Position numbers and translations under genes: made by a program. 64,000 bases of DNA from Rhodocyclaceae bacterium (lineage in GTDB: Bacteria; Pseudomonadota; Gammaproteobacteria; Burkholderiales; Usitatibacteraceae). Position 1 is the stretch's first letter; every line of letters starts with the position of its first letter. The notes under the pieces are model-generated. The model ran no database searches, was not told the origin of the DNA, and worked only from the letters and a program-made list of their open reading frames with translations. The DNA lies in contig JADCIX010000001.1 in the NCBI GenBank assembly GCA_020247545.1, forward strand, positions 62,001 through 126,000, given 5' to 3'. Shown in pieces: positions 11,083-34,538 of the stretch.

Positions 11083-12972
11083 ATGGGGTTGCAGTCACTA
11101 AGCGGTGTATTTGGTCAGCTGACCGCGCTAATTGGTCTGGTGCTGATGGCATCTGGCGCTCACGTGCTGGCGGCATCATCTAATCCCGCCTCCGCTTCCG
11201 CCTCCGCCGCCGCTTCCACCTATGTGCCCGACAAAACCAAAGTGCTGCGCTACGCCTTTGAGGTTGCAGAGTCGAGTATGGATCCGCAGAAGGTTTCGGA
11301 CGTGTACTCCACCATTGTCAACAACGCCATTTTTGATACACCGCTGCGTTATGACTATCTCGCGCGACCGTTGAAGGCCGTTCCGAATACGCTTGTGGCG
11401 ATGCCAGAAGTCACCGACAACCACAAGACCTTCACTATGCGCGTGAAGCCGGGCATCTATTTTGCCGACCATCCGGTGTTTGGCGGCAAGAAGCGCGAAC
11501 TGACCGCCGAAGATTACGTTTTTACCATCAAACGATTGTTTGATCCCAAACTCTCCGCGCCGCTGCTGGCCGAGGTTGAAGGATATGTCGTCGGTTCAGA
11601 TGAGTTGTTAAAGCGAGTCCGCAAAGCCAACAAGATGGATTACGACACGCCGCTTGAGGGGTTACGGGCGCTGGATCGTTATACGTTTCAGATTAAGTTG
11701 ACCGAAACCAAGCCGGATTTCTTCTATGTGCTAACCGATTGCCGTGTGTCGTGTGCGGTCGCCCGAGAAATCGTCGAACACTACGGTACTGACATCGGCT
11801 CCAATCCCGTGGGAACGGGTGCCTACCAACTGACGAGCTGGAAGCGTTCGTCGCGCATGGTGTTTGAATACAACCCAAATTTCCGTGAAGCCTACTTTGA
11901 GGGCGAGCCGTCGCCCGACGACAAAGCAGGCCAGGAAATTTTGGCGCAGATGAAGGGCAAACGGTTGCCGCAAGTGTATCGCGTTGAGGTTGCAATTATC
12001 GAAGAACGGCAGCCGCGTTATTTGTCGTTCATCAACAATGAATTCGATTTGATCTGGCTGTTCCCGGAAGACTTTGCGAATATGAGTTTTCCCAACCGAA
12101 CCCTCGCACCGAACCTGAAAAAGATGGGGATTCAGATGCAGCAAGTCGCCGCGCTGGATCTGACCTACATCTACTTCAATATGGAAGACAAGACCGTCGG
12201 TGGATACAAGCCAGAGAACGTGGCGCTGCGCCGGGCGATCTCTCTGGGTTATAAGACGGAAGACGAAATCAATATCATCCGTAAGGGCCAAGCGATTCCG
12301 GCGCACACCCCGTATGCGCCGGGCGTACAGGGCTGGACACCTGACTTCAGAACGTCAGCCAACGAATACGATCCCGCCAAAGCGAAGGCATTACTCGATC
12401 TGTACGGCTACAAGGACGTTGATGGCGACGGCTATCGCGAGATGCCCGACGGCTCGCCGCTAGTCTTGAGAAACAATTCGACGCCGACCGACCGTGATAA
12501 ACAGTTCGATGAGCTTTGGAAGCGCTCAATGGACGCCATCGGTATTCGTATCGAAGTTACCAAAGGAAAATGGCCAGATTTTCTGAAGGCGTCGGATGCG
12601 GGCAAGCTCATGATGTGGCAATTGGGTGGCTCCGCGTCAACACCAACCGCAGAAACTTGGCTGCAATCTCTCTACGGCCCAAACTCCGGATTCAAGGGGA
12701 ACCGCGCGCGTTTCCAGTTGGAAGCGTATGACGATCTTTTTGCCAAGTCCGAATTACTGCCCGATGGCCCTGAGCGCACCAAGTTGTATCAGGAAATGGC
12801 TCGTCTGGTTGTTGCTTACGCGCCGTGGAAGATCAACACGCATCGCATCCTCACGGATTTGTATTACCCGTATCTGGTGGGTTTTCGACGTCCTGCCGTC
12901 CAGACACAGAGCTGGTGGCGGTTCGTGGATATTGATGTGCCGCTGATGAAGCAATACGAGGCAAAACGCTGA
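11083..12972 (+). CDS. ABC transporter substrate-binding protein, family 5 (copy 1 of 3)
   Basis: Periplasmic binding protein for an oligopeptide/dipeptide-type importer. A signal peptide with a hydrophobic core (about residues 12-30) is followed by a Ser/Ala-rich linker. The mature part carries SBP_bac_5 features shared with the next two genes: YDYLARP, FADHPVFGGKKREL, NPVGTGAYQL and VGGYKPENVALRRAI. At 629 residues it has the size of the YejA/OppA class. GGAG upstream of the ATG supports the start. It overlaps the next binding-protein gene by one base (TGATG), which implies coupled translation. The substrate is unknown. Confidence 0.9.
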   Translation: MGLQSLSGVFGQLTALIGLVLMASGAHVLAASSNPASASASAAASTYVPDKTKVLRYAFEVAESSMDPQKVSDVYSTIVNNAIFDTPLRYDYLARPLKAVPNTLVAMPEVTDNHKTFTMRVKPGIYFADHPVFGGKKRELTAEDYVFTIKRLFDPKLSAPLLAEVEGYVVGSDELLKRVRKANKMDYDTPLEGLRALDRYTFQIKLTETKPDFFYVLTDCRVSCAVAREIVEHYGTDIGSNPVGTGAYQLTSWKRSSRMVFEYNPNFREAYFEGEPSPDDKAGQEILAQMKGKRLPQVYRVEVAIIEERQPRYLSFINNEFDLIWLFPEDFANMSFPNRTLAPNLKKMGIQMQQVAALDLTYIYFNMEDKTVGGYKPENVALRRAISLGYKTEDEINIIRKGQAIPAHTPYAPGVQGWTPDFRTSANEYDPAKAKALLDLYGYKDVDGDGYREMPDGSPLVLRNNSTPTDRDKQFDELWKRSMDAIGIRIEVTKGKWPDFLKASDAGKLMMWQLGGSASTPTAETWLQSLYGPNSGFKGNRARFQLEAYDDLFAKSELLPDGPERTKLYQEMARLVVAYAPWKINTHRILTDLYYPYLVGFRRPAVQTQSWWRFVDIDVPLMKQYEAKR

Positions 12973-14786
12973 TGGCGAGTTTCCGTGTGATGGTTTCGCG
13001 TGTGCTGCTGCTGGTTGCCGCGCTCGTGTCATGGCCGATCCATGCGCAGCCGGATCCCAACAAAGTGCTGCGTTGGGCATTTGAGATCGCGGAGACGGGT
13101 TTTGATCCGCCACAGACCTCAGACTGGTATTCTGCTTACGTCTTCGCCAACATTTTTGATACACCGTTAACCTACGACTACCTGGCGCGTCCGGTTAAGT
13201 TAAAACCCAACGTGCTGGAAGCCATGCCGGACGTCTCGCCGGACGGCTTGGTTTACACGCTCAAGTTTCGCAAAGGCATTTACTTTGCCGATGATGCCGC
13301 CTTCAACGGCCAAAAGCGTGAGCTCGTCGCAGCGGATTTAGCCTATTCGATGAAGCGTTTGTTTGATCCGAAAACGCGCTCACCGAATTTGTCGTATCTC
13401 GACGGCAAGATCGCCGGCATGGAAAAGGTTCGCCAAAGGCAGCGTGACAGCGGCGTCTTTGATTACGACATGCCGGTGGAAGGATTTGAGCTGGTTGATC
13501 GCTACACGTTGCGCATCAAATTGGTGGCACCGGACTACAACTTCCTCTACATCTTGGCCTATAACGGCGCTTGTGCGATTGTTGCGCGTGAGGTTGTTGA
13601 GAAGTACGCCACGGATATCATGGCGCACCCGGTGGGCACGGGACCGTATAAGCTGGAGTCATGGAAACGATCGTCAAAAACGGTTCTGGTTGCCAACCCC
13701 GGGTTTCGGCAAGAGTACTGGGAGGCCGAGCCAAACGTGGACGACGCCAAGGGTCAGGAAATTGCGAAGAAAATGCGCGGCAAACGATTGCCCATGATCG
13801 GTCGGATCGAGTTTTATGTCATCGAAGAAACACAGCCGCGCTGGTTGTCGTTTCGCAACATGCAGCACGACTACATTGATCGGGTGCATCCCGACTTTAT
13901 CAACCAAGCCTACCCGAACAACAAACTCGCCAAGGACTTGGAGAAGCTGGGCGTGCAAGTCAGTCGCACGGCGGCGATGGAAGTTACCTACGCCTATTTT
14001 GCGATGGAGAATCCGGTGGTCGGCGGCTACACACCGGACAAGGTTGCACTGCGCCGCGCTATTGGCATGGGTTACAACGCGCCGGAAGAAATTGCCATCA
14101 ATCGCAAGGGGCAAGCGGTTGCCGTCCATACGCCGATTGGTCCCGGGGCTTTCGGCTACGAGCCTGATTTCCGCTCGCGTGCCACCGAGTACGACCCGGC
14201 AGCTGCAAGAGCGCTGCTGGATGTGTTTGGCTACAAGGACCGCGATGGTGATGGATATCGCGAAAATCCAGATGGGTCGCGCCTTGAGATTCTGATGTCA
14301 TCCACGCCAACGCTGCGCGACCGGCAGCTCGATGAAGGCTGGAAAAAAAGCATGGAAGCTATTGGCATTCGTATCTCGTTTCCGAAGGCGCAATGGCCTG
14401 ATCTATTGAAAGAGTCGCTCGCCGGAAAACTCATGAGCTGGCGGCTTGCGTGGGGCGCGGTATACCCGGACGCCGATGCCTTCTACTTGATGCTGTTCGG
14501 GCCGAACGCTGGTCAGGCCAATCATGCGCGGTTTAAAAACGATGAGTTTGACCGGCTGTATTTGAAGGCGCGCATGACGCCGCCCGGCGAAGAACGTTTG
14601 GCGATGTATCGGCAGATGAATCGTATTTTCCTATCACTGGCACCGTGGCGGCTAGGGGTTGCGCGGATGGACACCGATCTTACGCATGCGTGGATGATTG
14701 GTTATCAGCGGCATCCGACTTTGCGCGGCGTTTGGAAAATGGTCGATATGGATTTGGACGTTCAGCGCAAGGTGCGGAAAGAGTAA
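12972..14786 (+). CDS. ABC transporter substrate-binding protein, family 5 (copy 2 of 3)
   Basis: A 604-residue paralogue of its neighbours, with a signal peptide ending near VSWPIHAQ. It shares YDYLARPVKLKPN, GIYFADDAAFNGQKREL, HPVGTGPYKLESWKRSS and VGGYTPDKVALRRAI with copies 1 and 3, so the three arose by duplication. Its ATG uses the last base of the upstream TGA. The binding-pocket residues that would separate its ligand from those of the others cannot be judged by eye. Confidence 0.9.
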   Translation: MASFRVMVSRVLLLVAALVSWPIHAQPDPNKVLRWAFEIAETGFDPPQTSDWYSAYVFANIFDTPLTYDYLARPVKLKPNVLEAMPDVSPDGLVYTLKFRKGIYFADDAAFNGQKRELVAADLAYSMKRLFDPKTRSPNLSYLDGKIAGMEKVRQRQRDSGVFDYDMPVEGFELVDRYTLRIKLVAPDYNFLYILAYNGACAIVAREVVEKYATDIMAHPVGTGPYKLESWKRSSKTVLVANPGFRQEYWEAEPNVDDAKGQEIAKKMRGKRLPMIGRIEFYVIEETQPRWLSFRNMQHDYIDRVHPDFINQAYPNNKLAKDLEKLGVQVSRTAAMEVTYAYFAMENPVVGGYTPDKVALRRAIGMGYNAPEEIAINRKGQAVAVHTPIGPGAFGYEPDFRSRATEYDPAAARALLDVFGYKDRDGDGYRENPDGSRLEILMSSTPTLRDRQLDEGWKKSMEAIGIRISFPKAQWPDLLKESLAGKLMSWRLAWGAVYPDADAFYLMLFGPNAGQANHARFKNDEFDRLYLKARMTPPGEERLAMYRQMNRIFLSLAPWRLGVARMDTDLTHAWMIGYQRHPTLRGVWKMVDMDLDVQRKVRKE

Positions 14787-14905
14787 AAGTCTAGTGTTGG
14801 CGGGCGTTTTCAGGCATTTATGGCTGAAACAGCAAGCCAGGCGGATAGTTTCAAATTGGTAGTATTGGCGATGTTGGCCATCAGACGTAAAACGAGGAGT
14901 GAGTT

Positions 14906-16816
14906 TTGTCATCGATTGGCACTCAAACTGTCGAGCATCACATGTCAAGAGTGGTGACGGGGATGTCGCGTGTGCCGTTGGCGTTGTGCTTGACATTGCG
15001 GTGGGCTGCATTCTTCGGGGCGATTGTGCTCATCGCGTGTGTATCGACGTTTGCCTCGCCGGTCTTCGCCGCAGACGCGGGGAAAAAGACGATCAAGATT
15101 GCCTTCCGCGCGATTGAAACCGGCTTCGACCCGCAAAAGATCGAAGATCGGTATTCGATCGCCGTGTGTGAGAACTTGTTTGAGTCGTTGCTGACCTACG
15201 ATTGGTTGGCGCGCCCGGTAAAACTGATGCCACAAGTGGTCGAGAAAGTGCCAGAGGGCGAGGAGGGCGGCACACGTTTCACCTTCCGCATTAAGCCAGG
15301 CATCTTGTTTGCGGACGATGCAGCGTTTGGCGGCAAGAAACGTGAACTCGTGGCGCGCGATATGGAGTACGCCATCAAGCGCTTCCGTGACCCCGCTGTC
15401 CGCAGTCCATACTCGTGGCTCTTCGAGGACAAGATCCTTGGCCTCGATGAGTACGTCGAGAGCATCAAAATAAGCGGTGCCAAGTTTGATTACGACAAGA
15501 AAATCGAAGGCATCACCCTTATCGACAAGTACACCATCTCATTCAAGTTACGCTCCCCGGATTACAACTTCATCTACTTTTTTGCGATACCAAACGTTGT
15601 ACCAGTCGCGCGCGAGGTGATAGAGAAATACCGCGATGACACCATGGCGCATCCGGTCGGTACCGGGCCGTATGTCCTCAAAGAATGGGTGCGTGCCTCC
15701 AAGATTGTGCTTGAGCGCAATCCCAACTATCGTGGACACACGCTTAACACCGAGTTTGCCGATGCCAATGACCCTTGGGATCGCGACGCCATCAAGTCGC
15801 TCGCGGGCAAAACGCTACCGCTTATAGACCGAGTTGAGATCACGCCTATTGAACAGGATCAGCCGCGCTTCTTGGCGTTTATGGACAACCAGCACGACTA
15901 CCTTGAAGAAACGCCGCTCTCGTTCGTGTCACAGCTATTCTCGAACGGCCAACTTTCGCCCGCGATGGTAAAGCGCAACGTTCGGGTCTTTCAAGAGACA
16001 CAGCCGGAGATTGTTTGGGACGGGTTCAACCTAGACGATCCGATTGTTGGCGGCTATAAGCCGGAGAATGTCGCGCTACGACGTGCCATCATTCACGCAC
16101 ATGATGTTCAAGCCGAAATTAGCATCGTCCGCAGCGGGCAAGCGGTGCAAATGCACGGGCCGATTAGTCCTGGGGTTGTCGGATACGACCCGACTTTCCG
16201 CACTGCCGAACAACAGTACAACTTGCCTGCCGCCAAAGCGCTGCTGGATTTGTATGGCTACTTGGATAAAAACGGTGACGGTTGGCGCGATATGCCGGAT
16301 GGCCGCCCGTTAACCATCGAATACAAATACCGCGCCAATGAAAGTGATGCGCGCCAGAGTGCGGCGCTGTGGGTGAAGAACATGGCGGCGATTGGCATTA
16401 AGATGACAGCCAAAGAGGTACTGTTTGCGGACTTGCTCAAGGATCGCAAAGTCGGCAAGTTTCAGATGTCCGGTTTTGCGTGGATCGCCGACTATCCCGA
16501 CGCGCAGAATTTTCTGCAGTTGCTTTACGGGCCCAACACGGATATCTCCAACGACTCACGCTTCAAGCTCGCCGCCTACGATCAGCTGTATTCTGCCGCG
16601 CTGAAATTGCCTGACGGGGAAGAGCGCAACCGGTTGTATCGCGAGATGAGTCGCCTCATTGTGGCCTACGCGCCGTGGCGGTTTACCTTACACCGTACGT
16701 TTAGTCACTTCATCAACCCCTGGGTGAAGGGTTACAAGAAGCACCCGATCTATTACACCGCGTTCAAATATCTTGATGTTGATCTCGCCATGCAGCGCAA
16801 GGTGATGCAACACTAA
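14906..16816 (+). CDS. ABC transporter substrate-binding protein, family 5 (copy 3 of 3)
   Basis: A 636-residue family 5 binding protein. The start is a TTG at 14906 with GAGGAG about 6 nt upstream; an ATG at 14942 is an alternative with a weaker ribosome site. An extended N-terminal region precedes a signal sequence core near residues 34-52 (FFGAIVLIACVSTFA), with cleavage probably near VFAADA. Motifs shared with copies 1 and 2 include YDWLARPVKLMP, FADDAAFGGKKREL and HPVGTGPYVLKEW. It is separated from copy 2 by 119 bp and lies 41 bp before the permease gene. Confidence 0.9.
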   Translation: MSSIGTQTVEHHMSRVVTGMSRVPLALCLTLRWAAFFGAIVLIACVSTFASPVFAADAGKKTIKIAFRAIETGFDPQKIEDRYSIAVCENLFESLLTYDWLARPVKLMPQVVEKVPEGEEGGTRFTFRIKPGILFADDAAFGGKKRELVARDMEYAIKRFRDPAVRSPYSWLFEDKILGLDEYVESIKISGAKFDYDKKIEGITLIDKYTISFKLRSPDYNFIYFFAIPNVVPVAREVIEKYRDDTMAHPVGTGPYVLKEWVRASKIVLERNPNYRGHTLNTEFADANDPWDRDAIKSLAGKTLPLIDRVEITPIEQDQPRFLAFMDNQHDYLEETPLSFVSQLFSNGQLSPAMVKRNVRVFQETQPEIVWDGFNLDDPIVGGYKPENVALRRAIIHAHDVQAEISIVRSGQAVQMHGPISPGVVGYDPTFRTAEQQYNLPAAKALLDLYGYLDKNGDGWRDMPDGRPLTIEYKYRANESDARQSAALWVKNMAAIGIKMTAKEVLFADLLKDRKVGKFQMSGFAWIADYPDAQNFLQLLYGPNTDISNDSRFKLAAYDQLYSAALKLPDGEERNRLYREMSRLIVAYAPWRFTLHRTFSHFINPWVKGYKKHPIYYTAFKYLDVDLAMQRKVMQH

Positions 16817-21183: not shown

Positions 21184-21573
21184 CTACATTGAGCAGAACA
21201 TCTCGCGGGTCAGCGAGATGAGTTTGATGATGCGTGGATCTTCAATCCGGTACAGTATCCTTTTGCCCTCACTTCGGCTGGCGACCATGCCGCTGGCTTT
21301 CAGGATCGCCAAGTGCTGGGATACATTGCCTTGGGTGGTGCCTACCGCCTCGACAATTTCCTGAACGGAAATCTCCCCCGACGAGAGCAGGCATAACACT
21401 TTGATCCGTAGCGGGTGGGACATCGCCTGCATCGCCACAGCGGCTTCTTCAATGTTCTGAGATTTGCCAATCAGGTCAAAAATGTCGGTGTTGGCGTCTG
21501 TAAGGCGCGCGGCACGTCGTTTGAAGGTGCGTTGTGGTGCGCCTGTGTCGATTGTTTTTTTCGCGGTAGCCAT
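21184..21573 (-). CDS. ArsR/SmtB-family regulator with a persulfide-sensor-like cysteine pair
   Basis: Winged-helix DNA-binding repressor. The core helices (MSHPLRIKVLCLLSSGEISV, then GNVSQHLAILKASGMV) are typical ArsR. Cys61 (VLCLL) and Cys127 (REMFCSM) are 66 residues apart. As I recall them, the redox cysteines of the sulfide/persulfide sensors SqrR and BigR have the same spacing and flanks. No CxC metal site is seen. An N-terminal extension of about 45 basic residues is unusual. The gene lies 7.3 kb from the sox genes, separated by the giant lipoprotein gene. A role in controlling sulfur oxidation is inference. Confidence 0.85.
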   Translation of the reverse strand: MATAKKTIDTGAPQRTFKRRAARLTDANTDIFDLIGKSQNIEEAAVAMQAMSHPLRIKVLCLLSSGEISVQEIVEAVGTTQGNVSQHLAILKASGMVASRSEGKRILYRIEDPRIIKLISLTREMFCSM

Positions 21574-21585
21574 TGGTGAACTCTA

Positions 21586-21797
21586 TCTGAATACTTCATA
21601 GGGGTGCGCCTTAAAGTGGGTGAGTGGGCGAGCGATTTTTCGCCTGACCGACCAAAGCATAGGGGGCTATGCTGGGGGAGGAGGGCGCGTGTTTGGCAAA
21701 CTCGGGTCTGTCGAAGCGCCCGAGGGTGAACGTGCAGCCCGCATTCACGGCAAAAGAGGAACGAGCCAAATCGCTTATCCACCCATTCAGATTCAGC
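21586..21797 (+). repeat. Miniature inverted-repeat element, decayed copy
   Basis: About 212 bp that aligns along its length with the copies at 38213-38391 and (reversed) 41521-41766. It starts TCTGAATACTTCAT, contains GCGAGCGATTTTT and an imperfect palindrome around AGCATAGGGGGCTATGCT, and ends with a degenerate CCATTCAGATTCAGC. It lies just upstream of the ArsR-type gene start. The remaining part of the 500-bp spacer (21798-22073) holds nothing I can recognise. Confidence 0.75.
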
Positions 21798-22073
21798 CTC
21801 ATTAGGCGCTCACTGATCAAAGCTACGTAGCGGGATTATTGTGCGGAATCCGCCAAGCCTCGACGAAGAAACTGTTCTGGCCATCTAATGGTCTCGCATC
21901 TTTTGGTAAAGCTCTAATTCTCAAAACCCGTCTGGAATTGCGCGCTGGCAATGACTGCGCGGCGGCGGGAGCCGCCGCAACCGACCCCAATCCGGCCTAC
22001 GATTTGCCCGACAAGCGGTCGTTCAAATGAGCAACAACATTGTTGGGTAGTGGCGTTGCGAGTTTAGCGTCAT

Positions 22074-25000
22074 CTAGGGTTGAACCGGCACAAACCCGGA
22101 TGGACTCGAGCCTGCATTCGCAATCACAGTTGGTGCTGCACCGTTGTCGTTCAGCAACCAAAGAGTAAGCGTCCCATCCGGTCGCTTCCAAACGACGTCC
22201 ATAATGCCGTCTCCGTTGAAGTCGCCTGCTGCGTAGAACTGCCAAGACGGGTCGGCGGTGAGAATCGGCAGTGTCGTTGAAGTGACCTGAAGAGCGCTGC
22301 TAGTACAAGACGCATTTTGGTCGTCCGGTAAGCCGGTGTACGTTGGCAAGCTCAAACCGGAGGCGTTGAGCGCAATCAACGACACAAGTCCCGTGGAGTT
22401 GTCTCGAACTAGGATATCGCCTCTGCCATTGCCCGTGAAGTCTGCCAACTTCAGCGCGGTCAAGTTCGTGGGGATATTCCCGATTAAGACGTTAGCGCAG
22501 GTGCGATTTGCTGTTGCCATCAGCGCCCGCGCCTGATTGGCAGGACTGACATAGACCATATCCGCAGCGCCATCGCCATTTAGGTCGGCTGCGCCGAGAA
22601 GGGTCCAGTTGAGGGGCGCACCACCACGCTTACGTACCTGAGTAACAGCGCTGCCGTTGGTAAACCAGATGTATGATACGCCGGTATCAGGGGAGTCAGT
22701 TACAACGTAACGCCAAACGAGATCGCCAAAGCCGTCGCCATCGAGGTCGCCCCCCGCCTGTACATCCCAGACTTGTTTGACCTGTCGCCAGAAAACTTCA
22801 TTCGATGGCGAAAAACCCCGCCAGATTTTGATGTCACCGAACGTTCCTTGCGTCATATTCTGGAAGGCAAGGTCTGACTTCCCGCTTCGGAAAAAGTCGC
22901 CTACACCAACCAAACGGTAACTTGGGCCTGGGTCCTGAAGTGCGCTAAATTGGAATCGGTTATTAAACAAGCGTGCGACTTGAAGTTGTGCTGAAGCGGA
23001 CCGGACGACGATTGCGCTTTTGCCGTTGCCATCTATGTCAATCCCACCACGCCTAGAAAGCTGAATTGGCCCCGATAACGATCGAATTGTTCGAGTCAGC
23101 GAAAAGTTCGGACAGTTGGTCGTGCTGCTAGCCGCTAAAGACAAGCAGGAGGCCACATTCCAAGAATAGATGCCCGGGCCAAAATTGCTTACCGTAAACC
23201 CAGTTGAAGTTTGGGTAGGCGGCAACGCGGGTGTTAAGACATCGGTGCCAGTTGTTCGGTTAAAGATATAGAACGAGTAGCCTGCCGCACCTTCAACCCT
23301 ACTCCAAGAGAAGTCCACGGAGCCTCCATTAATCACTGCTTGGTCAGCTGGCGAAACCAGAGTCGGTGCTGGCGGAGAGGGAGTTAGCTCGTCAGCGCTA
23401 CCCGGGTAGTAGACCGGGGTCGGTTTTCGGTACAAACCAACTGACGACCCGAGCTGACCCATTGCATTACTACCCCAGCAAACGACGGCATCGCCGACCG
23501 TGGCGCAAGTGTGCGACACGCCTGCCGCGATGGACGCCACCCTGCTACCGGGGGCGATTACGTCAACTGGAGTATTACTAAACGCTATTCCGTTTATACC
23601 CTGTAGGCTTCCCCAACACTTCACCCCCCCGGCAACAATTGCGCAAGTATGATAAGGGCCCACTGCAACTGCAGTAACACTGTTACCCGCCGCAAACACC
23701 TGAACCGGCACTCGGCTGTTGCTGTAAGACCCGTTGCCTAGCTGTCCACTGCTACCGTGGCCCCAACATTGCAGGCCACCGTTGACCACCGCGCAGGTGT
23801 GGAAGGTACCCGCGGAGACACTGGTGGCACCGGTACCAGCCGCGATTGATTGCACCGGCACGTTGGAGTCTGTCGTGCTGTTGTTGCCCAACTGGCCGTA
23901 CTGGTTCCAACCCCAACACCGCACGCCGCCACTGACGACCGCGCAACTATATGAATTTCCGGCGGTAACAGCAACTGCGCCAAGCCCTGCTGCAATTGAC
24001 TGCACCGGTGTATTTGAACCAGAAGTACTCCCGTTACCCAACTGGCCACTTCCTCCATTTCCCCAGCACTGCACGCCGCCGCTGACTACAGCACAAGTAT
24101 GGTATCCGCCCGCAGCAACTTGACCAACATTACCGGTAATGACTTGAACGGGCTGTGATGCGGAGGTCGAACTACCGTTACCAAGTTGACCGAACCTCCC
24201 GTCTCCCCAACAGCGAAGCGCTCCCGCAACCACGGCACAAGCGTGCTGATTGCCCACAGCAATGCTGGTTGCGCCAGAGTTCGCGGCAACCACCGAGACC
24301 GGTGTTGTGCTGTGGTTAGAAACACCATCCCCAAGGCCAAACTCATTAGTTCCCCAGCATGACACGCCTCCGCGTACCAACGCGCACGTCTGGCTCTCGG
24401 ACGAGGCGACTACAGTGGCATTTCCGCCGGCAGCAATTGCGACGGTTGGCGGCAAAGTAGAGGAGCTGCCATCGCCTACTTGGCCGCTCGCATTATTACC
24501 CCAGCACAATGTCTGCCCATTGACGATGGTACAGGTATGCGCAGCTCCGGTCGCTACGATCGTCGCGCCTGACTTGGCCGGGATCGTTTGTAGCGGCACC
24601 GAACTTGGGCTCGCACCACTATTGCCGAGCTGACCACTTGTGTTTAAGCCCATACATCGCACACCGCTGTCAATCACGAAACACGTGTGTCTGGCACCGC
24701 CCGCTACTGCCGTCACCCCACTTCCCGAAGGAACGACCTGCACGGGAACACTGGATTGGCGCGTGCTGCCATTTCCTAGCCTGCCATCTGATCCCTCCCC
24801 CCAGCAGCGCAGCCCGCCGTTAACCACGGCACAACTATGCCATTGACCGGCCGCAACGGAAGTCGCCCCGCTACCCACAGCAATTGCCTGGACTGGGGAA
24901 TTAGCAGAGACGCTACTGTTGTTGCCCAACTGCCCAAAGGCGCCGTTGCCCCAACATTGCACTCCGCCATTGACTGCGGCGCAGGTATGGTAGTCGCCGG

Positions 25001-28000
25001 TGGAAACTGCAGTGACGTTGCTACCCGCTGGGATAACGGATACGGGTACAGACCGGTTTGAGGTGTTGCCGGTGCCAAGTTGCCCGGTGTTGTTGTACCC
25101 CCAACATTGCACGCCCCCGGCTACAACCGCACACGTATGCTGAGAACCTGCCGACACGGCAGTAACGTTGCTGCCGCTGGGAATAGCCTGCACAGGGGTA
25201 TTAGAGTATGCGGTACTATTGTTTCCAAGCTGACCGTATGCACCGTAGCCCCAACACTGTGCACCACCGTTCACCACCGCGCAGGTGTGGTATGTCCCTG
25301 TGGAAATTTCGGTGACGTTGCTACCTGCCGCAATGACTTGAGTTGGCGAAGAGTTGTTCGAGTAATTGCCCGTCCCGAGCTGACCATAAGAATTCCCGCC
25401 CCAGCATTGAACCCCGCCGTTCACGACGATACAGGTGTGAGATCCGCCTGAACTGACGCGCGTCGCCGCTGGTGGCGATAGGCTTGGGCGTGCTCGCACT
25501 TCGATATTTGTGTTCAGCGTTGCCGACTCAATAGAATTGGTATAGCGAATCGAGACCGAATAAGTCCCGGGTTGGGCGCTCGTGCTTCCTGAAATCGTTA
25601 GGTTACCAAGACCATCATAGGTGGCGATCAAACCGGCTGGAAGCCCAGAAACGCTGACTGAATTTGGTGGCTGAGAGCCACCAATCAGCAATCTGCCAAC
25701 GTATGTTTGACCTGCCTGCACGACCGGAAAAGTGGAAGCCACCAGTTGCGCGCTAAAATCCAGAACTTCGATAGTCTGCGTAACCGGCTCGGCGGGTAAG
25801 AAATTACGGTCACCCACTTGAAATGCCTTGAGCTGACAGGATCCGCGCTTTACCAAGGTTACAGTCCTGTCATTCGCCAAACAGACTGATGGCGTCAAGC
25901 TTGTAAAGATTAGCGGTAGGTTTGACGACGCCGAAGCGTTTGGCGTCGTCGTACCGGCAGACACTCTCACTGATTGACCTGCAGGGAAACTGATTGTCTG
26001 CGCCGCGCCGTCCCCAACGATATCGACCGACGGATTGGATGCGCGAAAGACGCCTCTCCCGTACGTCGCAATAAGCAGGGTTCGGTTATCAAACCACTGC
26101 AAGTCTTCAATCGCGACACCCGGCGCAAGTTCTGGCGCCAATTTCCATGAAGCGCCATCGTTCTCGCTTGTGTAAAGCCCAAACTCAGTCCCTGCGTAGA
26201 GCATTGTATTTTTCAGGGGATGTTGCGTCACCGTGTATACATAACGATTACCCAAATTGCCGGTAATGTCCTGCCAGGTCGCTCCGCCATCAATGGTGCG
26301 AAAAATGGATTTGCTTGCCTGGGTGTAGCCAAACGTCGCATAGACTCGATTGGAATCTGACTGGTCAATGAAAAGCCGCGTCCCATACCCCCAAGTTCCG
26401 ATGGGCAATTTAAAGCTCTGCCAACTCGGAGTAGCGTCGAGAGCGTTTGAAGTCTTTTGCACTAGGCCGCCGGCCTGTCTAATCACCCAAACGACGTTCG
26501 CGTTACTTGGCGCAGCCGTTGCCGCGACAATGTTGTTTTTTGCGTCCGTAGGGTCAGGGCCGAGAATTTGCTTTCGTGTTGGTGCCGTGGTCCAAACATC
26601 ATCGCTCGCCCAAAGCGACGTGTTCATCATGTAAACTCGGTTCGGGTTATTTCTGTTTTGTTCGATGTAGGTGAAAAAGGGGTCCGATTCCGAGCCTGAC
26701 CAAATTGTCTTGGAGGTAACCCCTGTCTCGGTCAAATTCACTTGTGAAACTGCACCCTGCTGATAGGTCGTCAAAAACTGAAACGGGTTGTTCGGATTAA
26801 ACGCCGCACGCATGCCGTCGCCGCCGGTCGGCTGCCACCAATTGGCGGCGTCGCCCCGATACATCGTGGTGCCGTTGTCCTGCAGGCCCGTGATGATTGC
26901 GCCTCCCAACCATGCAGAACCATTAACATAGTAGCTCTGGGTGATGCGTAGATCGTTATTCAGGTACGTCAGCGGCCCGACCCTCGTCCTATAGTCTGCG
27001 TATGAAGCAGGATCCACTCGCAGTTGCGTCACATCATCTGCACGCCAAATGCCGCCATCATTGCCAAACCATACCCGCCGATTAGTAGACCCGTTGAAGT
27101 TGGGGTCAGTAAGAATAACGTGGTGATCCGCATGGAGCAATACGTTCAATCCGCCGTTGGCGTAGGCTGGCTCTGGGAACGGCAAGTTGACCGAAGAGAC
27201 CGGTCGGGTCGCATAGTCATTAACCATAGCCCATGTGCTGCCGCCGTCCAACGACTGCAGCACGACAATTTCGCCTAACAGGAGATGGTTGGCGTTTGTG
27301 GGATTTACCCAAAGGACATGGTTGTAGCCACCTTGGGATCGAGCATTAGCCCCCCAAGTTGAAGACGAGGCGCGCGCCAAATACACCCAGTCGTTGCCGC
27401 CGTTATCGGAACGCCAAATTTCATAGCGTTTATTGGCATCGCCAGATTTTGCGGTTATCGAGGCATAGACTCTTCCGGGGATGGATTTCGCATATGCGAA
27501 GTGGATATCGCGAGACTCACTTCTGTCATCACCCGGGAATCCGTTCGCATAACGCCAAGTCAATCCGAAATCACCTGAGACCAAGATGCCTCGATAGTCC
27601 GTATTGGCGATAAGGTTGTTGGCGTTGTTTGGGTCCTGGCGCAGCCATTTGACTCTGGAAAATGACGGGCTGTTGCCAGAAGTTACGCTCGTATTCAGTC
27701 GCTGCTGCCATGTCGCCCCACCATCGCTACTACCCCAAATTCCCTCATAGTCCGCAGAAACCAGCATCAAATTTGACTGCGTTGGGTGAATCACAATACT
27801 CCGTGCCAACGCAAGGGCGGTGCCGGCGCCACCGGCAGGTTTGATCAGGGTCCAACTATTGCCACCGTCTCGAGTGACGATGATTCCAGGACCAGACGAG
27901 TTTGCGTATTCCCCAGTCGTCGCAAAAATCGTATTCGGATTTCCCGGCATCATCGTCAGGCTAAATATGCCGACATAACCCAGCGCATCCGTTGTAGACC

Positions 28001-28598
28001 GCCACGAGTTACCTCCATCCAAGGATTTCCAAACCCCTCCCGTTACCGCGCCCAACCAAACGATGTTGGGGTTCGTTGGGTCTACAAGAATCGAGCGAAT
28101 ACGACCGCCGACATTGCCCGGACCCAGGTTGTCCCAAACCGCCGCGCCCTTTCGATTGAAGCCTGGCTGTGTCGACAACTCGGCAAGCGCCGCTTCTCGC
28201 TCTTCGAATGCTTGTTTCGCAGCGGCAGCGTAGCGTTTTTGATGCCCTTCAATGTCGCCCCCCATCCGCAGCAAGCGAAAGTATTGGTCTGCGCCGCCGG
28301 GGTACTCACCGGTTCGGGCCACCACGCCTTTAGTAAGGTGTCTGATCTTTCTGTCGGCCGAGGCTGCGCAAAAGTCCTTTAGTGAAACCGCCCGGTTTTT
28401 GAGCACCGTTTCAAGGTTTGCGGCCGTGATCTGCAAGCTCGCAGAAACGCTTTCGATTGTTGGCTGTTCAGGGCATGAAACCGTACTCAGCGACTTTTGA
28501 ATAATCGGATTTGAAATTGCATATTCGGGAGCTGGCACTGTCGAACATCCAGTAAGAGCCGTGATCGCCGCTGCAATCAAACCGTTAACTGTTTTCAT
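22074..28598 (-). CDS. Giant repeat lipoprotein: BNR/sortilin-like, RCC1 and FG-GAP repeats
   Basis: A 2174-residue predicted lipoprotein. The signal peptide ends in the lipobox LTGC (Cys18). About residues 150-860 hold BNR/Asp-box propeller repeats (SLDGGNSW, SSDGGATW, TIDGGATW). An Ig-like segment follows (about 955-1040). About 1045-1720 hold fourteen RCC1-type repeats of roughly 45-50 residues, most with an HTC...CWG cysteine pair and GQLGNGS turns. A fibronectin-like stretch (about 1760-1845) and five FG-GAP-like repeats with DxDGDG-type calcium loops (GDLDGDGFGD, ADLNGDGAAD) finish the protein. It is probably displayed on the outer membrane or cell surface. No enzymatic domain is evident. 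Function is unknown; adhesion or binding is only a guess. Confidence 0.9.
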   Translation of the reverse strand: MKTVNGLIAAAITALTGCSTVPAPEYAISNPIIQKSLSTVSCPEQPTIESVSASLQITAANLETVLKNRAVSLKDFCAASADRKIRHLTKGVVARTGEYPGGADQYFRLLRMGGDIEGHQKRYAAAAKQAFEEREAALAELSTQPGFNRKGAAVWDNLGPGNVGGRIRSILVDPTNPNIVWLGAVTGGVWKSLDGGNSWRSTTDALGYVGIFSLTMMPGNPNTIFATTGEYANSSGPGIIVTRDGGNSWTLIKPAGGAGTALALARSIVIHPTQSNLMLVSADYEGIWGSSDGGATWQQRLNTSVTSGNSPSFSRVKWLRQDPNNANNLIANTDYRGILVSGDFGLTWRYANGFPGDDRSESRDIHFAYAKSIPGRVYASITAKSGDANKRYEIWRSDNGGNDWVYLARASSSTWGANARSQGGYNHVLWVNPTNANHLLLGEIVVLQSLDGGSTWAMVNDYATRPVSSVNLPFPEPAYANGGLNVLLHADHHVILTDPNFNGSTNRRVWFGNDGGIWRADDVTQLRVDPASYADYRTRVGPLTYLNNDLRITQSYYVNGSAWLGGAIITGLQDNGTTMYRGDAANWWQPTGGDGMRAAFNPNNPFQFLTTYQQGAVSQVNLTETGVTSKTIWSGSESDPFFTYIEQNRNNPNRVYMMNTSLWASDDVWTTAPTRKQILGPDPTDAKNNIVAATAAPSNANVVWVIRQAGGLVQKTSNALDATPSWQSFKLPIGTWGYGTRLFIDQSDSNRVYATFGYTQASKSIFRTIDGGATWQDITGNLGNRYVYTVTQHPLKNTMLYAGTEFGLYTSENDGASWKLAPELAPGVAIEDLQWFDNRTLLIATYGRGVFRASNPSVDIVGDGAAQTISFPAGQSVRVSAGTTTPNASASSNLPLIFTSLTPSVCLANDRTVTLVKRGSCQLKAFQVGDRNFLPAEPVTQTIEVLDFSAQLVASTFPVVQAGQTYVGRLLIGGSQPPNSVSVSGLPAGLIATYDGLGNLTISGSTSAQPGTYSVSIRYTNSIESATLNTNIEVRARPSLSPPAATRVSSGGSHTCIVVNGGVQCWGGNSYGQLGTGNYSNNSSPTQVIAAGSNVTEISTGTYHTCAVVNGGAQCWGYGAYGQLGNNSTAYSNTPVQAIPSGSNVTAVSAGSQHTCAVVAGGVQCWGYNNTGQLGTGNTSNRSVPVSVIPAGSNVTAVSTGDYHTCAAVNGGVQCWGNGAFGQLGNNSSVSANSPVQAIAVGSGATSVAAGQWHSCAVVNGGLRCWGEGSDGRLGNGSTRQSSVPVQVVPSGSGVTAVAGGARHTCFVIDSGVRCMGLNTSGQLGNSGASPSSVPLQTIPAKSGATIVATGAAHTCTIVNGQTLCWGNNASGQVGDGSSSTLPPTVAIAAGGNATVVASSESQTCALVRGGVSCWGTNEFGLGDGVSNHSTTPVSVVAANSGATSIAVGNQHACAVVAGALRCWGDGRFGQLGNGSSTSASQPVQVITGNVGQVAAGGYHTCAVVSGGVQCWGNGGSGQLGNGSTSGSNTPVQSIAAGLGAVAVTAGNSYSCAVVSGGVRCWGWNQYGQLGNNSTTDSNVPVQSIAAGTGATSVSAGTFHTCAVVNGGLQCWGHGSSGQLGNGSYSNSRVPVQVFAAGNSVTAVAVGPYHTCAIVAGGVKCWGSLQGINGIAFSNTPVDVIAPGSRVASIAAGVSHTCATVGDAVVCWGSNAMGQLGSSVGLYRKPTPVYYPGSADELTPSPPAPTLVSPADQAVINGGSVDFSWSRVEGAAGYSFYIFNRTTGTDVLTPALPPTQTSTGFTVSNFGPGIYSWNVASCLSLAASSTTNCPNFSLTRTIRSLSGPIQLSRRGGIDIDGNGKSAIVVRSASAQLQVARLFNNRFQFSALQDPGPSYRLVGVGDFFRSGKSDLAFQNMTQGTFGDIKIWRGFSPSNEVFWRQVKQVWDVQAGGDLDGDGFGDLVWRYVVTDSPDTGVSYIWFTNGSAVTQVRKRGGAPLNWTLLGAADLNGDGAADMVYVSPANQARALMATANRTCANVLIGNIPTNLTALKLADFTGNGRGDILVRDNSTGLVSLIALNASGLSLPTYTGLPDDQNASCTSSALQVTSTTLPILTADPSWQFYAAGDFNGDGIMDVVWKRPDGTLTLWLLNDNGAAPTVIANAGSSPSGFVPVQP

Positions 28599-28717
28599 CG
28601 TGATCCCACTTTCTTACGTTTTTTTGGTGAGGCTGGTTGTTGTTAATTTATAGATTTATGAAACCAAGTGTTCGCGCCGCTTCAATATTGACCCAGGCTG
28701 CCGATTGAAATTTGATC

Positions 28718-28742
28718 TAGCCTGAATACTTCATGGGTCGCC
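28718..28742 (-). repeat. Solo end of the CTAG-associated miniature element
   Basis: Starting at the TAG of a CTAG (28717-28720), this 25-bp stretch matches the right terminus of the 38213 and 41521 elements (CCTGAATACTTCATGGGTCG). The similarity stops after about 26 bp, so only one end remains. It lies in the 333-bp spacer between the giant lipoprotein gene and soxC; with the 21586 copy it brackets the lipoprotein gene. Confidence 0.7.
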
Positions 28743-28824
28743 TGCCGTTTCGAAGTATGTTAGCTGGTGGCGATGTGCAAAACAATTTGGGTTTACCGTT
28801 TTGTTGCGGTGCAGCGTGACTTCG

Positions 28825-28842
28825 TATTAGATTAGCCTAATA
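28825..28842. promoter_or_regulatory. Inverted repeat upstream of soxC, possible operator
   Basis: TATTAG (28825-28830) and CTAATA (28837-28842) form a perfect 6-bp inverted repeat with a 6-bp centre, about 90 bp before soxC. AT-rich dyads of this size are used by ArsR-type repressors. That the nearby ArsR-type protein binds here is inference. No convincing -35/-10 pair was fixed around it. Confidence 0.35.
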
Positions 28843-28931
28843 TTAGCCGAACCTTATATCATCATATCCACTACACCCCACCACGCCCCACTACGCCGCG
28901 TTTATGCTGCGGGCTAATCGGAACCAGCAAT

Positions 28932-30275
28932 ATGGCAGAGCAACCTAGCAGCGGACGGATCACCAAGGCACCGGAAAATTTTCTCTCGCCGGCAATGATT
29001 GCCGACGTTCAACGCGGACGCCGTGACTTTCTACGCGGGGCCTTCGCCGGTGCCTTGAGCGGCGCGGGTGCGGTCGTTGCAAGCGGTGCCGCCGCACAGA
29101 CGCCATTGCTTGGCGACCCGAACATTCTTGAGTTGCCCGAACACACCAAGGGCTTGGGCCAACCGGTTGCCGCCACACCCTACGGCATGCCGTCTAAATA
29201 TGAAGCGAATCTACAGCGACGCGAAAGCCCGGGATTGACCCGTGTCTCCGCCGCGTCAGTGTCATTTTGCCCGCTACAGGGACTGTTTGGCATCATCACG
29301 CCTAGCGGGTTGCACTTTGAACGACACCACCAAGGCTGGTGGGACATTGATCCGACCAAACATCGTTTTATGATTAACGGCTTGGTGAAAAATGCCAAGG
29401 TCTATACGATGGATGATCTGATGCGGCTACCTTCGGTATCGCGCATGCACTTTATCGAGTGTGGTGCAAACACCGGCATGGAGTGGGGCAATGTCGCGGT
29501 GCCAACCGTCCAATATACCCACGGCATGTTGAGTTGTTGTGAATTCACCGGTGTACCGCTTTCCGTTCTGCTGGAAGACTGCGGCTTCGATAAGTTGAAA
29601 GGCAAATACATTCTTGCTGAAGGGGCGGATGGCTCAAGCATGACGCGCAGCATCTCGATTGAGCGCGCGCTGGATGATTGTTTTGTGGCGTATGCCATGA
29701 ACGGCGAGATGTTGCGCCCTGAGAACGGCTACCCGCTGCGACTGGTGGCACCGGGCATTCAAGGCGTGAGCTGGGTGAAATGGTTGCGTCGTTTGGAAGT
29801 CGGCGATAAACCCTACGCCACCAAAGACGAAACCGTGCATTACATCGACTTGATGCCCGATGGCACCCATCGGCAGTACACCAGTATTCAAGAGTGCAAG
29901 AGTGTCATCACTACCCCGTCAGGCGGCCAAACACTAATGGACAAGGGCTTTTACAACGTCAGTGGGCTGGCCTGGTCGGGTCGCGGCAAGGTTAAACGCG
30001 TCGATGTTTCTTTCGACGGTGGCCGCAACTGGCGGACGGCCAAGTTAGACAGCCCGGTTCTCTCAAAATGTCTGACAAGATTCAGCATCGGATTTAACTG
30101 GGATGGCAGCCCGGCGATTTTGCAAAGCCGTGCGATCGACGAAACCGGCTACGTGCAGCCGCAAATGCGCCAACTTCGTCAGGTGCGGGGGACACGTTCG
30201 ATCTATCACAACAATGCCATTCAAAGCTGGAAGTTGGATACCAATGGCGAAGTGTCTAACGTACATGTGGGTTAG
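28932..30275 (+). CDS. soxC: Sulfite dehydrogenase/sulfane dehydrogenase molybdenum subunit SoxC
   Basis: Molybdopterin subunit of SoxCD, which oxidises the sulfane sulfur held on SoxYZ in the periplasm. A Tat signal with twin arginine (RRDFLRGAF, residues 30-38) precedes an Ala/Gly-rich core. The cysteine expected to bind Mo lies in HFIECGANTGMEWGN (Cys177). C-terminal SRIDG-like features include VDVSFDGGRNW. At 447 residues it is normal for SoxC. The 3' end overlaps the start of soxD, and the pair heads this Sox cluster. Confidence 0.95.
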   Translation: MAEQPSSGRITKAPENFLSPAMIADVQRGRRDFLRGAFAGALSGAGAVVASGAAAQTPLLGDPNILELPEHTKGLGQPVAATPYGMPSKYEANLQRRESPGLTRVSAASVSFCPLQGLFGIITPSGLHFERHHQGWWDIDPTKHRFMINGLVKNAKVYTMDDLMRLPSVSRMHFIECGANTGMEWGNVAVPTVQYTHGMLSCCEFTGVPLSVLLEDCGFDKLKGKYILAEGADGSSMTRSISIERALDDCFVAYAMNGEMLRPENGYPLRLVAPGIQGVSWVKWLRRLEVGDKPYATKDETVHYIDLMPDGTHRQYTSIQECKSVITTPSGGQTLMDKGFYNVSGLAWSGRGKVKRVDVSFDGGRNWRTAKLDSPVLSKCLTRFSIGFNWDGSPAILQSRAIDETGYVQPQMRQLRQVRGTRSIYHNNAIQSWKLDTNGEVSNVHVG

Positions 30276-31338
30276 GCGCGCCGTGAGTCGTCTGCACAAG
30301 CCATTCTTGGTCGCCACAGCGTTGCTGGTCGGCACAAGCGCACTCGCGCAACAGAAGTACCCCGGCATTGGTCGTGCGGTAACGCCTGCAGAAGTCAAGG
30401 CTTGGGATATTGACGTTCGGCCAGACTTCAAGGGGCTTCCGCCAGGTTCTGGTTCAGTGGCAATTGGCCAACAAATCTGGGAGGCCAAGTGTGAGTCCTG
30501 CCACGGTACGTTTGGTGAATCCAACGAGGTCTTCACACCGATTGCAGGCGGAACGACCAAGCAGGACATGGAAACCGGGCGTGTCGCTAGCCTAAGGCGG
30601 TCGGATTTCCCGCAGCGCAGCACCCTGATGAAACTTTCGCAGCTCTCGTCCTTATGGGATTACATCAATCGCGCCATGCCTTGGAATGCGCCGAAATCGC
30701 TGACAACGGACCAGGTGTATGCGGTAACCGCGTACATCCTGAATCTGGGGGATATCATTCCGTCTGATTTTGTACTCTCTGACAAAAACATCGCCGAGGT
30801 GCAGTCACGGTTGCCGAATCGCAATGGGCTGGTTACCTTTATGCCGATGTGGGACGTGCGCGGCAAAGGCGATGTGACGAATACGGCGTGCATGGCCAAT
30901 TGCGCCAGGGAGGTAACACTGTCGTCAACCATGCCGGATCATGCGCGTAATGCACACGGCAATATCGCCGAGCAGAATCGGCTTGTTGGCGCGGTGCGCG
31001 GGGCCGACACCACCAAACCACCACCGCCGGTCATGGCGTCCACTCGCGAGGTGCCGATGGCTGCACCCGCCCCGTCGAAGGCGGTGACGGGCGCAGAGTT
31101 GGCGCGCAAAAGTACCTGTGTCGCCTGCCATGTCGCAAACCGGAAACTGGTCGGGCCAAGTTATGCCGATATTGCCAAGAGATATGCCGGTGACAGCTCA
31201 GCCGTTGCCAAATTGATGGACAAGGTACGCAAGGGAGGATCCGGCGTATGGGGTGTCATCCCAATGCCACCGCATCCGGAGCTGACAGACGCCGATATCA
31301 AAATGCTGGTGGAGTGGAGTTTGCAGGGTGGTAAGTAG
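30265..31338 (+). CDS. soxD: Diheme cytochrome c subunit SoxD
   Basis: Electron-accepting cytochrome of SoxCD. It has a signal peptide (PFLVATALLVGTSALAQ) and two heme c sites, CESCH at residues 76-80 and CVACH at 285-289, as in diheme SoxD. I placed the start at the ATG at 30265, overlapping soxC by 11 bp; a GTG at 30283 just after the soxC stop would give a shorter signal peptide and is equally possible. A much longer open frame runs back into soxC but is only its shadow. Confidence 0.93.
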   Translation: MWVRRAVSRLHKPFLVATALLVGTSALAQQKYPGIGRAVTPAEVKAWDIDVRPDFKGLPPGSGSVAIGQQIWEAKCESCHGTFGESNEVFTPIAGGTTKQDMETGRVASLRRSDFPQRSTLMKLSQLSSLWDYINRAMPWNAPKSLTTDQVYAVTAYILNLGDIIPSDFVLSDKNIAEVQSRLPNRNGLVTFMPMWDVRGKGDVTNTACMANCAREVTLSSTMPDHARNAHGNIAEQNRLVGAVRGADTTKPPPPVMASTREVPMAAPAPSKAVTGAELARKSTCVACHVANRKLVGPSYADIAKRYAGDSSAVAKLMDKVRKGGSGVWGVIPMPPHPELTDADIKMLVEWSLQGGK

Positions 31339-31463
31339 TCATTGTGCGTTTTTGGGGTTGATCTGCAGCAAGGATTGTTTGGCAGATCAATGTGCGAAGT
31401 CTTGTATATTCTTCAGCTTGCCTCAAGTAAAAGTACGTTTCTTTAGATTGCAAAGGGATAAAC

Positions 31464-31931
31464 ATGAATAGACGCGAAGTACTAAAGGCTGGCAGCAGCA
31501 GCACCGTCATGGCATTGATGATGAGTGCCGGACTACTCAGAGCAGGTGATGTCGCGGCGCAAGAGTGGAACAAAAATGCGTTTGAAGCCAAAAACCTTAA
31601 CGATACGGTGAAGGCGCTCGGTGGAACAGCTGCCACCGAATCCAGGGATATCACGTTTGTGAATGCCCCCGATATTGCGGAAAACGGTGCCGTTGTGCCG
31701 GTTGGCGTGCAAAGCAAAATTCCGAAGACGGAAATGATCGCGATTTTGGTGGAGAAGAATCCGAACTCGCTTTCAGCGGCGTTTACGATTCCAGAAGGTA
31801 CCGAGGCCACCGTTTCGACTCGTGTGAAGATGGGACAGACATCCAATGTACACGCCGTGGTGAAGGCGGACGGGAAGTTCTATTACGCGACGAAGGAGAT
31901 CAAGGTAACCCTGGGTGGATGTGGCGGCTAG
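31464..31931 (+). CDS. soxY: Sulfur carrier protein SoxY
   Basis: Periplasmic carrier whose C-terminal cysteine holds the sulfur substrate during Sox oxidation. The protein ends in the diagnostic GGCGG (Cys153), immediately followed by the stop. A Tat-type signal begins NRREVLKAG. At 155 residues it is normal. An AAGGGA ribosome site precedes the ATG. Its TAG stop is part of the CTAG that begins a 127-bp hairpin element separating it from soxZ. Confidence 0.96.
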   Translation: MNRREVLKAGSSSTVMALMMSAGLLRAGDVAAQEWNKNAFEAKNLNDTVKALGGTAATESRDITFVNAPDIAENGAVVPVGVQSKIPKTEMIAILVEKNPNSLSAAFTIPEGTEATVSTRVKMGQTSNVHAVVKADGKFYYATKEIKVTLGGCGG

Positions 31932-32054
31932 AAGCGGCGTCTTTCGATGTGATGCGGCGTTGCTTCCTCGTTTTGTTCGCTCATGTATAACCCATACATG
32001 TCGCTCACAAAGCCTTCGTCGCGCCTTGCCTGACATCGAAATACTTGCTTCTAG
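31928..32054. repeat. 127-bp imperfect palindromic element between soxY and soxZ
   Basis: The element begins and ends with CTAG (31928-31931 and 32051-32054). The outer arms CTAGAAGC...TTTCGATGT and ACATCGAAA...GCTTCTAG pair, and the tip around TGTATAACCCATACA closes the hairpin. Transcribed, it would make a large hairpin in the soxYZ message. It looks like a mobile or once-mobile miniature element inserted at a CTAG that includes the soxY stop codon. Confidence 0.85.
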
Positions 32055-32112
32055 TTTTGCAACGATCGCCCACACAACGAAAAAAACGATACGTAGGAAT
32101 TAGGAGAAATTC

Positions 32113-32424
32113 ATGGCAGATCCGATGAGAATTCGCGCCCAGATGGCGGGCAATATGGTTGAAGTACGTGTCTTAATGGCACATGAAATGGAAACCGGTC
32201 AGCGGCGCGATGCGGCCGGCAAAACGGTCCCAGCATGGTTCATCCAAAGCGTGACGGCAACGTGCAACGGTAAGACGGTGCTGTCCGCCCAGTGGGGCCC
32301 GGCAGTGTCGAAGAATCCGTTTCTCTCCTTCCGCTTTAGTGGTGCCAAGGCGGGTGACAAAGTGATTGTCACTTGGACGGACAATAAAGGTGACAAGCGG
32401 ACCGACGAAGCGGTGATCTCGTAA
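32113..32424 (+). CDS. soxZ: Thiosulfate oxidation carrier partner SoxZ
   Basis: A small protein that forms the SoxYZ heterodimer and presents the SoxY cysteine to the Sox enzymes. At 103 residues it has the SoxZ fold features PMRIRAQ at the start and SFRFSGAKAGDKV near the end. There is no signal peptide, as usual, since it is exported with SoxY. AGGAG lies just before the ATG. Its stop overlaps the next gene (TAATG). Confidence 0.95.
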   Translation: MADPMRIRAQMAGNMVEVRVLMAHEMETGQRRDAAGKTVPAWFIQSVTATCNGKTVLSAQWGPAVSKNPFLSFRFSGAKAGDKVIVTWTDNKGDKRTDEAVIS

Positions 32425-33912: not shown

Positions 33913-33922
33913 GGGGATAGAC

Positions 33923-34537: not shown

Positions 34538-34538
34538 C

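Follow-up and report, generated by a model that had tools for sequence, protein, structure and literature searches.

Results

An ArsR-type regulator with two cysteines is encoded in the neighborhood of the sox genes

The stretch of 64,000 nucleotides that was analyzed as a whole (the window; Rhodocyclaceae bacterium, contig JADCIX010000001.1, positions 62,001 to 126,000) contains a gene for an ArsR-type repressor in the neighborhood of a sox gene cluster. The gene order is arsR, an open reading frame (ORF) of 6.5 kb, and soxC, the first gene of the cluster (Table 1). In an earlier note on this DNA the regulator gene had been described as close to the sox genes. Both are indeed found in the same neighborhood, yet 7.25 kb and the large ORF lie between the arsR start codon and the putative operator upstream of soxC. 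The genome encodes just one such ArsR protein.

The winged helix-turn-helix profile scores of the protein exceeded the curated cut-offs, i.e., 49.5 bits versus 22 for Pfam HTH_5 and 84.5 versus 55 for NCBIfam NF033788 (metalloregulator ArsR/SmtB), which places it in the ArsR/SmtB family. The score with the BigR equivalog NF040642 was far below the curated cut-off in the NCBIfam profile search (68.5 versus 155 bits). A phmmer search of the Protein Data Bank (PDB) yielded SqrR of Rhodobacter capsulatus as the top match (E 6.5e-17, 90 residues), followed by BigR, HlyU, and YgaV. Cys61 and Cys127 are the sole cysteines of the protein and are 66 residues apart, and the cysteines of both SqrR and BigR were aligned with them. 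Thereby, the equivalence of the two cysteine pairs that the earlier note had proposed was borne out. A cysteine pair at the positions of Cys41 and Cys107 of SqrR characterizes the reactive-sulfur-sensing group of ArsR proteins (SqrR, BigR, SoxR, YgaV, HlyU), and the protein of the window possesses it. The spacing of 66 was found at all 95 homologous loci (L001-L095, duplicate records among them).

An AlphaFold2 monomer model was generated from an alignment of 42 rows (mean pLDDT 82, above 90 in the core, about 50 for the first 20 residues). In the model Cys61 is situated within helix 54-63 and Cys127 immediately past helix 113-126. The best Foldseek match was again SqrR (E 6e-8, target TM score 0.88), and VIA-align yielded Z values of 16.8 for HlyU, 15.9-16.0 for SqrR, and 14.7 for BigR. 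The fold of the monomer model is thus SqrR-like, but metal sensors score equally well. The signal cannot be named from the fold alone, because the metal sensor CzrA reaches a Z value of 16.0, too. Metal-sensing ArsR/SmtB proteins have a CxC motif or His/Asp ligands in the last helix. The protein of the window lacks a CxC motif, and its only histidines, at positions 53 and 87, are outside the last helix (113-128). The classical metal sites are therefore not apparent.

The unusual N-terminal extension that had been noted before is indeed basic (net charge +5), but it comprises 29 residues ahead of the family motif DIFDLIG instead of the 45 residues that had been claimed. In relatives the length of this part varies from 1 to 37 residues; it is basic in most cases and is not conserved.

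The regulator gene is divergent from sox in related genomes

Orthologues were searched for in 27 relatives that belong to the genus or family of the window organism. In a separate search, named relatives were found that include genomes designated Rhodocyclaceae bacterium and other betaproteobacterial metagenome-assembled genomes as well as Betaproteobacteria bacterium UKL13-2, described as a freshwater phototroph carrying sox genes (PMC5248499). In 19 of the 27 relatives the orthologue is directly divergent from sox, with soxC as the neighbor in 13 cases and soxY in six. Hence, the regulator gene is sox-linked in these relatives, as it is in the system described in PMC10451225, while in the window the neighborhood has been split by an insertion (see below). 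In G018 the operator is present, but the contig is too short to place the orthologue relative to sox, and in G007, G020, G023, and G025 no match or only a weak partial match to the orthologue was found. In G001, a member of the same genus (L035, 5947-6360), the orthologue follows an acyl-CoA dehydrogenase-like ORF and lacks the operator.

In the closest relative, G008 (locus L002), arsR and soxC are 177 bp apart. Its arsR gene is 95% identical to that of the window, and the next gene (GsiA-like) 97%. Between the two arsR genes, codons 12-128 do not contain a single amino acid change, with 13 synonymous differences over the gene.

A conserved double dyad overlaps the predicted sox promoter

The earlier note had pointed to the dyad TATTAG-N6-CTAATA upstream of soxC. 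Its presence was confirmed at 28825-28842 (0 mismatches), but it turned out to be the left half of a larger conserved element, and a second dyad with at most two mismatches follows at 28841-28858. Two dyads with up to two mismatches were thus found, versus 0.44 expected per window. The 19 arsR-sox intergenic regions of the relatives were compared with one another, and they have one element in common, ATTAG-N6-CTAATATTAG-N6-CTAAT, which consists of two abutting 16-bp dyads. In the copy of the window the right half-site reads CTTAT. Nine relatives, which belong to the genus or to the one nearest to it, have arsR adjoining soxC (L002-L007, L012, L015, L016). Among them, 9/9 have a perfect left half-site and 8/9 a perfect right one, whereas the left half-site is degenerate in the genus with arsR adjoining soxY (the core of L014 was placed at a wrong spot with 2 mismatches in this comparison, and the counts include it as computed).

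Within 250 bp upstream of arsR, the core CTAATATTAG was found without mismatch in 8 of the 19 relatives, with at most one mismatch in 16, and with at most two in all 19; the match of L012 with two mismatches lies off its real site and is included as computed. For the 16 relatives no more than one of 100 dinucleotide shuffles each matched equally well, and for the other three, L012, L013, and L014, 8, 2, and 7 shuffles did so. In contrast, upstream of 58 related ArsR genes of the lineage that is associated with rhodanese and secB genes (see below) the core was present with up to one mismatch in 0/58 and with up to two in 3/58 cases. The pattern YTWATATWAG-N6-CTRAT had 27 sites in 17 of 28 genomes of the family, 25 of them at the arsR-sox locus, and the reversed control had none. 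A slightly stricter pattern was found in 9/13 genomes of the family versus 9/386 others among 399 genomes of the order (reversed control 4/386).

A large regulon was not supported, because the window genome contains only one exact copy of CTAATATTAG, and 11 additional sites with one mismatch compare with 14 for the reversed control. Further operator copies, if there are any, may be degenerate sites. An exact copy was also observed in a plasmid region of Chelatococcus daeguensis (L112, position 2384), which encodes two ArsR proteins, Blh, and YeeE; it is located upstream of a hypothetical gene.

The -10 box of the predicted sox promoter, TAGATT, is located inside the left half-site of the operator. 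Six relatives have a TTGAC hexamer and, 18 bp further on, a TAG.CT hexamer that overlaps the left half-site, and TTGCGG and TAGATT of the window appear to hold the places of these two hexamers. This overlap would fit repression by blockage of the -10 box.

An insertion has parted arsR from the operator

On the arsR side, the alignment of the window with L002 and L003 extends to position 21585, and on the sox side it resumes at 28792 or 28802. An insertion of about 7.2 kb, as assembled, thus parts arsR from the operator, which has stayed with soxC. On the left the insertion begins 13 bp ahead of the start codon of arsR, at the CTCTA of a CTAG site; its right border is between 28774 and 28802, and the operator and the predicted sox promoter are intact. 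Measured from the operator, soxC is at a distance of 75 bp, the inserted gene starts after 228 bp, and the arsR start is now 7253 bp away. Because the operator was left with soxC, arsR should have lost direct autoregulation. Directly upstream of arsR the best match to CTAATATTAG has four mismatches, which is the shuffle level.

The inserted gene encodes a protein of 2174 amino acids, is on the same strand as arsR, and reads leftward, away from the operator, with arsR 501 bp behind it. The last approximately 330 residues of the protein, an FG-GAP module, have 18 matches in its own genome, itself included, and the protein was matched in 12 of 13 genomes. Many proteins in the genus contain this C-terminal module, whereas their N-terminal parts differ from one another. 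The protein thus belongs to a lineage-specific modular family and is probably secreted. Fragments of a short interspersed repeat are situated at or near both borders, and the window also contains a full copy that resembles a miniature inverted-repeat transposable element (MITE-like). At least 65 pieces of this repeat are present in the window genome, 67 in G003 (the genome of locus L003), and 36 in G008. Foreign DNA or a chimera was considered as an explanation of the insertion, but a foreign contig is unlikely because the G+C content of the insertion (0.52-0.59) overlaps with that of the flanks and the C-terminal module recurs in the genus. An assembly error has a small residual probability.

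Table 1. Coordinates of the regulator gene, the predicted control elements, the insertion, and the sox genes in the window.
Feature	Position	Strand	Remarks
arsR-type repressor gene (SoxR-like)	21184-21573	-	ATG start, 129 aa, Cys61 and Cys127
Insertion between arsR and operator	21586-28791		about 7.2 kb; from alignment with L002 and L003; not in closest relatives
Short interspersed repeat, fragment	21586-21688	+	left border of insertion
Gene of inserted 2174-aa protein	22074-28598	-	sortilin/VPS10-like, RCC1, and FG-GAP regions
Short interspersed repeat, fragment	28716-28774	-	near right border of insertion
Predicted sox promoter	28804-28833	+	-35 TTGCGG (28804-28809), 18 bp, -10 TAGATT (28828-28833)
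Predicted operator	28826-28857		two abutting 16-bp dyads, ATTAG-N6-CTAAT and ATTAG-N6-CTTAT
Operator core palindrome CTAATATTAG	28837-28846		sole exact copy in 3.54-Mb genome
soxC	28932-30275	+	first gene of sox cluster; genes after soxC, 30103-37721
soxD	30103-31338	+	
soxY	31464-31931	+	
soxZ	32113-32424	+	
DsrE-like ORF	32424-32891	+	in sox cluster
soxA	32911-33912	+	
soxX	33860-34537	+	
HbpS-like ORF	34722-35312	+	in sox cluster
soxB	35417-37156	+	
Thioredoxin-like ORF	36972-37721	+	end of sox cluster
Short interspersed repeat (MITE-like), full copy	38209-38395		21-bp inverted ends, CTAG on both sides

The protein belongs to a betaproteobacterial lineage

The identity of the window protein was 54-58% to three betaproteobacterial ArsR proteins encoded next to rhodanese and secB genes, 42% to SqrR, and 35% to BigR. 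The SoxR proteins of Rhodobacter, Ruegeria, and Paracoccus were less similar to it (37-39% identity) than to SqrR (62-68%). A tree of 55 proteins placed the sox-linked proteins in a clade of their own (99/96), which is nested within the betaproteobacterial group (99/98). A single clade of the 19 rows of the window group and three alphaproteobacterial SoxR was rejected (p-AU 1.6e-50), which speaks against a placement of the protein in the clade of these SoxR proteins; this tree is based on 117 columns and has long branches, and the identities are in agreement with it. The sox plasmid loci L118, L119, and L121, in which no ArsR gene was seen, are not part of the tree, and L116 and L119 are unannotated. 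Judged from identities and tree, the window protein is not an orthologue of the alphaproteobacterial SoxR and SqrR, but nests among betaproteobacterial ArsR proteins encoded next to rhodanese and secB.

Rhodanese and secB genes follow the ArsR gene at 56 of 60 betaproteobacterial loci, and the other four, which are short stretches, have gpmI. This arrangement of a two-cysteine ArsR followed by rhodanese and secB was observed at L044-L095, L021, L024, L040, and L041, with a glutaredoxin-like ORF in between at L049. A single full-text literature search did not yield a published description of such an arrangement. These proteins are likely to be persulfide-linked regulators. They are the closest relatives of the window protein outside the family (45-58% identity) and have the same two cysteines, but they are encoded at another locus that lacks an operator of the CTAATATTAG type. 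In the simplest reading, the transfer of this ArsR gene to the sox locus took place in an ancestor of the family and was independent of the alphaproteobacterial SoxR; the SoxR-like role would then have arisen twice.

Discussion

Taken together, the ArsR protein of the window probably works as a SoxR/SqrR-like, homodimeric, sulfur-switched repressor of sox. A SoxR-like control of the sox genes is well supported on the sequence level, because 19 relatives have kept the divergence of arsR and sox and the operator core is present with at most one mismatch in 16 of these 19 intergenic regions versus none of the 58 regions of the lineage associated with rhodanese and secB. The conserved operator at the promoter shared by arsR and sox also supports the control of the sox promoter that had been proposed in the earlier note. 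Persulfide sensing by the protein is suggested by analogy to its homologues. In the proposed mechanism, a homodimer with free thiols would bind the double dyad and would cover the predicted -10 box, so that soxC and the genes behind it would be blocked. Thiosulfate oxidation would raise the level of sulfane sulfur in the cytoplasm, whereupon, as in the homologues, a polysulfide bridge could form between Cys61 and Cys127. The bridged repressor would leave the operator, and the sox genes would be expressed. In the ancestral layout of the 19 relatives, the operator between arsR and sox would autoregulate arsR as well.

One of the closest known systems is SoxR of Hyphomicrobium denitrificans, a sox-linked repressor of sox (PMC10451225). 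Like the SoxR proteins of Paracoccus and Pseudaminobacter, it shares the ArsR fold, the spacing of 66 between the cysteines, and the sox linkage with the protein of the window. According to the parts of that report considered here, it forms two shifted bands with sox intergenic DNA, which fits two sites, as the double dyad of the window would provide, and polysulfide releases the DNA; mass spectrometry revealed one to three additional sulfur atoms between Cys50 and Cys116 (PMC10451225). SoxR, sHdrR, SqrR, BigR, YgaV, and HlyU have been grouped together based on the same two cysteines (PMC12423496, as far as considered). In contrast to the window protein, the alphaproteobacterial SoxR of Rhodobacter, Ruegeria, and Paracoccus group with SqrR, and the footprint of the window-type operator is missing from their three sox loci (L116, L117, L120). 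SqrR was the top match by sequence and in Foldseek with both cysteines aligned, but an operator of its type is missing upstream of soxC. SqrR controls sulfide-response genes and is not known to control sox. BigR (Xylella, rhizobia, Acinetobacter) shares the dithiol fold of ArsR proteins and both aligned cysteines, but it differs in its low identity and in the profile score below the cut-off.

Several observations weigh against a sulfur-switched sox repressor. Two cysteines alone could also serve a thiol-disulfide redox switch. In G001, G006, and G010 the orthologue is located away from sox and the operator is missing. The SqrR site ATTC-N8-GAAT (quoted in PMC9774250) was not found in 28599-28931 upstream of soxC, while there is one elsewhere in the window at 9876. 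The core identity to SqrR and alphaproteobacterial SoxR is just 37-42%, and the tree separates them. A sigma-70 consensus scan upstream of soxC did not call the proposed sox promoter, and in 21500-22100 upstream of arsR it did not call any promoter-like site. Because the native promoter region was lost and none was called in its replacement, arsR may or may not be expressed in this organism.

The last point leads to an alternative, namely that the regulator is being lost in this genome and that sox is constitutive or otherwise controlled after removal of the arsR promoter. The position of the insertion and the lack of an operator-like core upstream of arsR, where the best match is at chance level, would be in agreement with a loss. 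However, the ORF is intact, the protein is unchanged relative to G008 over residues 12-128 in spite of the silent differences (selection before and after the insertion cannot be separated), and the operator on the sox side is intact as well, which makes a loss unlikely. It is also quite unlikely, though a sequence could not distinguish a disulfide from a tetrasulfide switch, that a Cys61-Cys127 disulfide acts as a general thiol or oxidant switch that tunes sox to the redox state, with sulfane sulfur being secondary; for SoxR of H. denitrificans oxidation to the disulfide is reported to abolish DNA binding, too (PMC10451225). It is very improbable that the protein is an ArsR/SmtB sensor of metals or arsenite whose gene is near sox by chance. 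The ArsR/SmtB profiles score above the cut-offs, and CzrA and SqrR match the model equally well, but the two cysteines are 66 residues apart, the residues of the classical metal sites are missing, no metal efflux gene was recognized among the ORFs listed around arsR, and the operator is sox-linked. Lastly, GAATACTTCAT is common to the upstream regions of arsR (21589) and sox (28724), is exact at both places, and has nine copies in the genome versus none for the reversed control, and it could have been taken for an operator. It was ruled out because it proved to be the end of the interspersed repeat with its many pieces throughout the genome, and it is missing from the intergenic regions of L002 and L003.

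It is tempting to speculate one step beyond the sulfur-switched repressor of sox, although the following combination is only a tentative possibility. The dithiol switch of the lineage associated with rhodanese and secB would have been recruited to sox separately, with a double-dyad operator of its own, and the insertion would have turned the shared promoter into a new circuit. In this case the leftward promoter that once drove arsR would now point into the gene of the 2174-aa protein, and sulfane sulfur would control the synthesis of this giant protein. Production of the repressor would depend on read-through or on a new promoter, and simple autorepression would be gone.

How sulfane sulfur controls sox has been established for alphaproteobacteria, and the cited literature, as far as considered, does not contain a characterized betaproteobacterial case. 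Switches of this kind are already known, but these sources do not cover the betaproteobacterial lineage, the double-dyad operator, or the separation of the repressor gene from its operator. A sequence like the operator of the window was not found in the parts considered of PMC10451225, PMC12423496, PMC7315123, PMC9774250, and PMC4330345, a comparison that covers these five papers and not the earlier experimental SoxR papers. The locus offers a predicted operator of 32 bp that was compared with a reversed-pattern control. Its ancestral layout is clear from 19 relatives, and one genome provides a case of natural rewiring. The locus also points to the two-cysteine ArsR proteins beside rhodanese and secB in many betaproteobacteria.

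A gene for a YeeE-type transporter, which is one candidate for the import of sulfane sulfur, is present on contig C41 of the genome, and the sox cluster is devoid of a copy. Elsewhere in the window (11083-16816), a tandem of three genes encodes similar peptide-binding proteins, apparently of an ABC importer; behind it are ORFs that resemble permeases and one for a fused ATPase.
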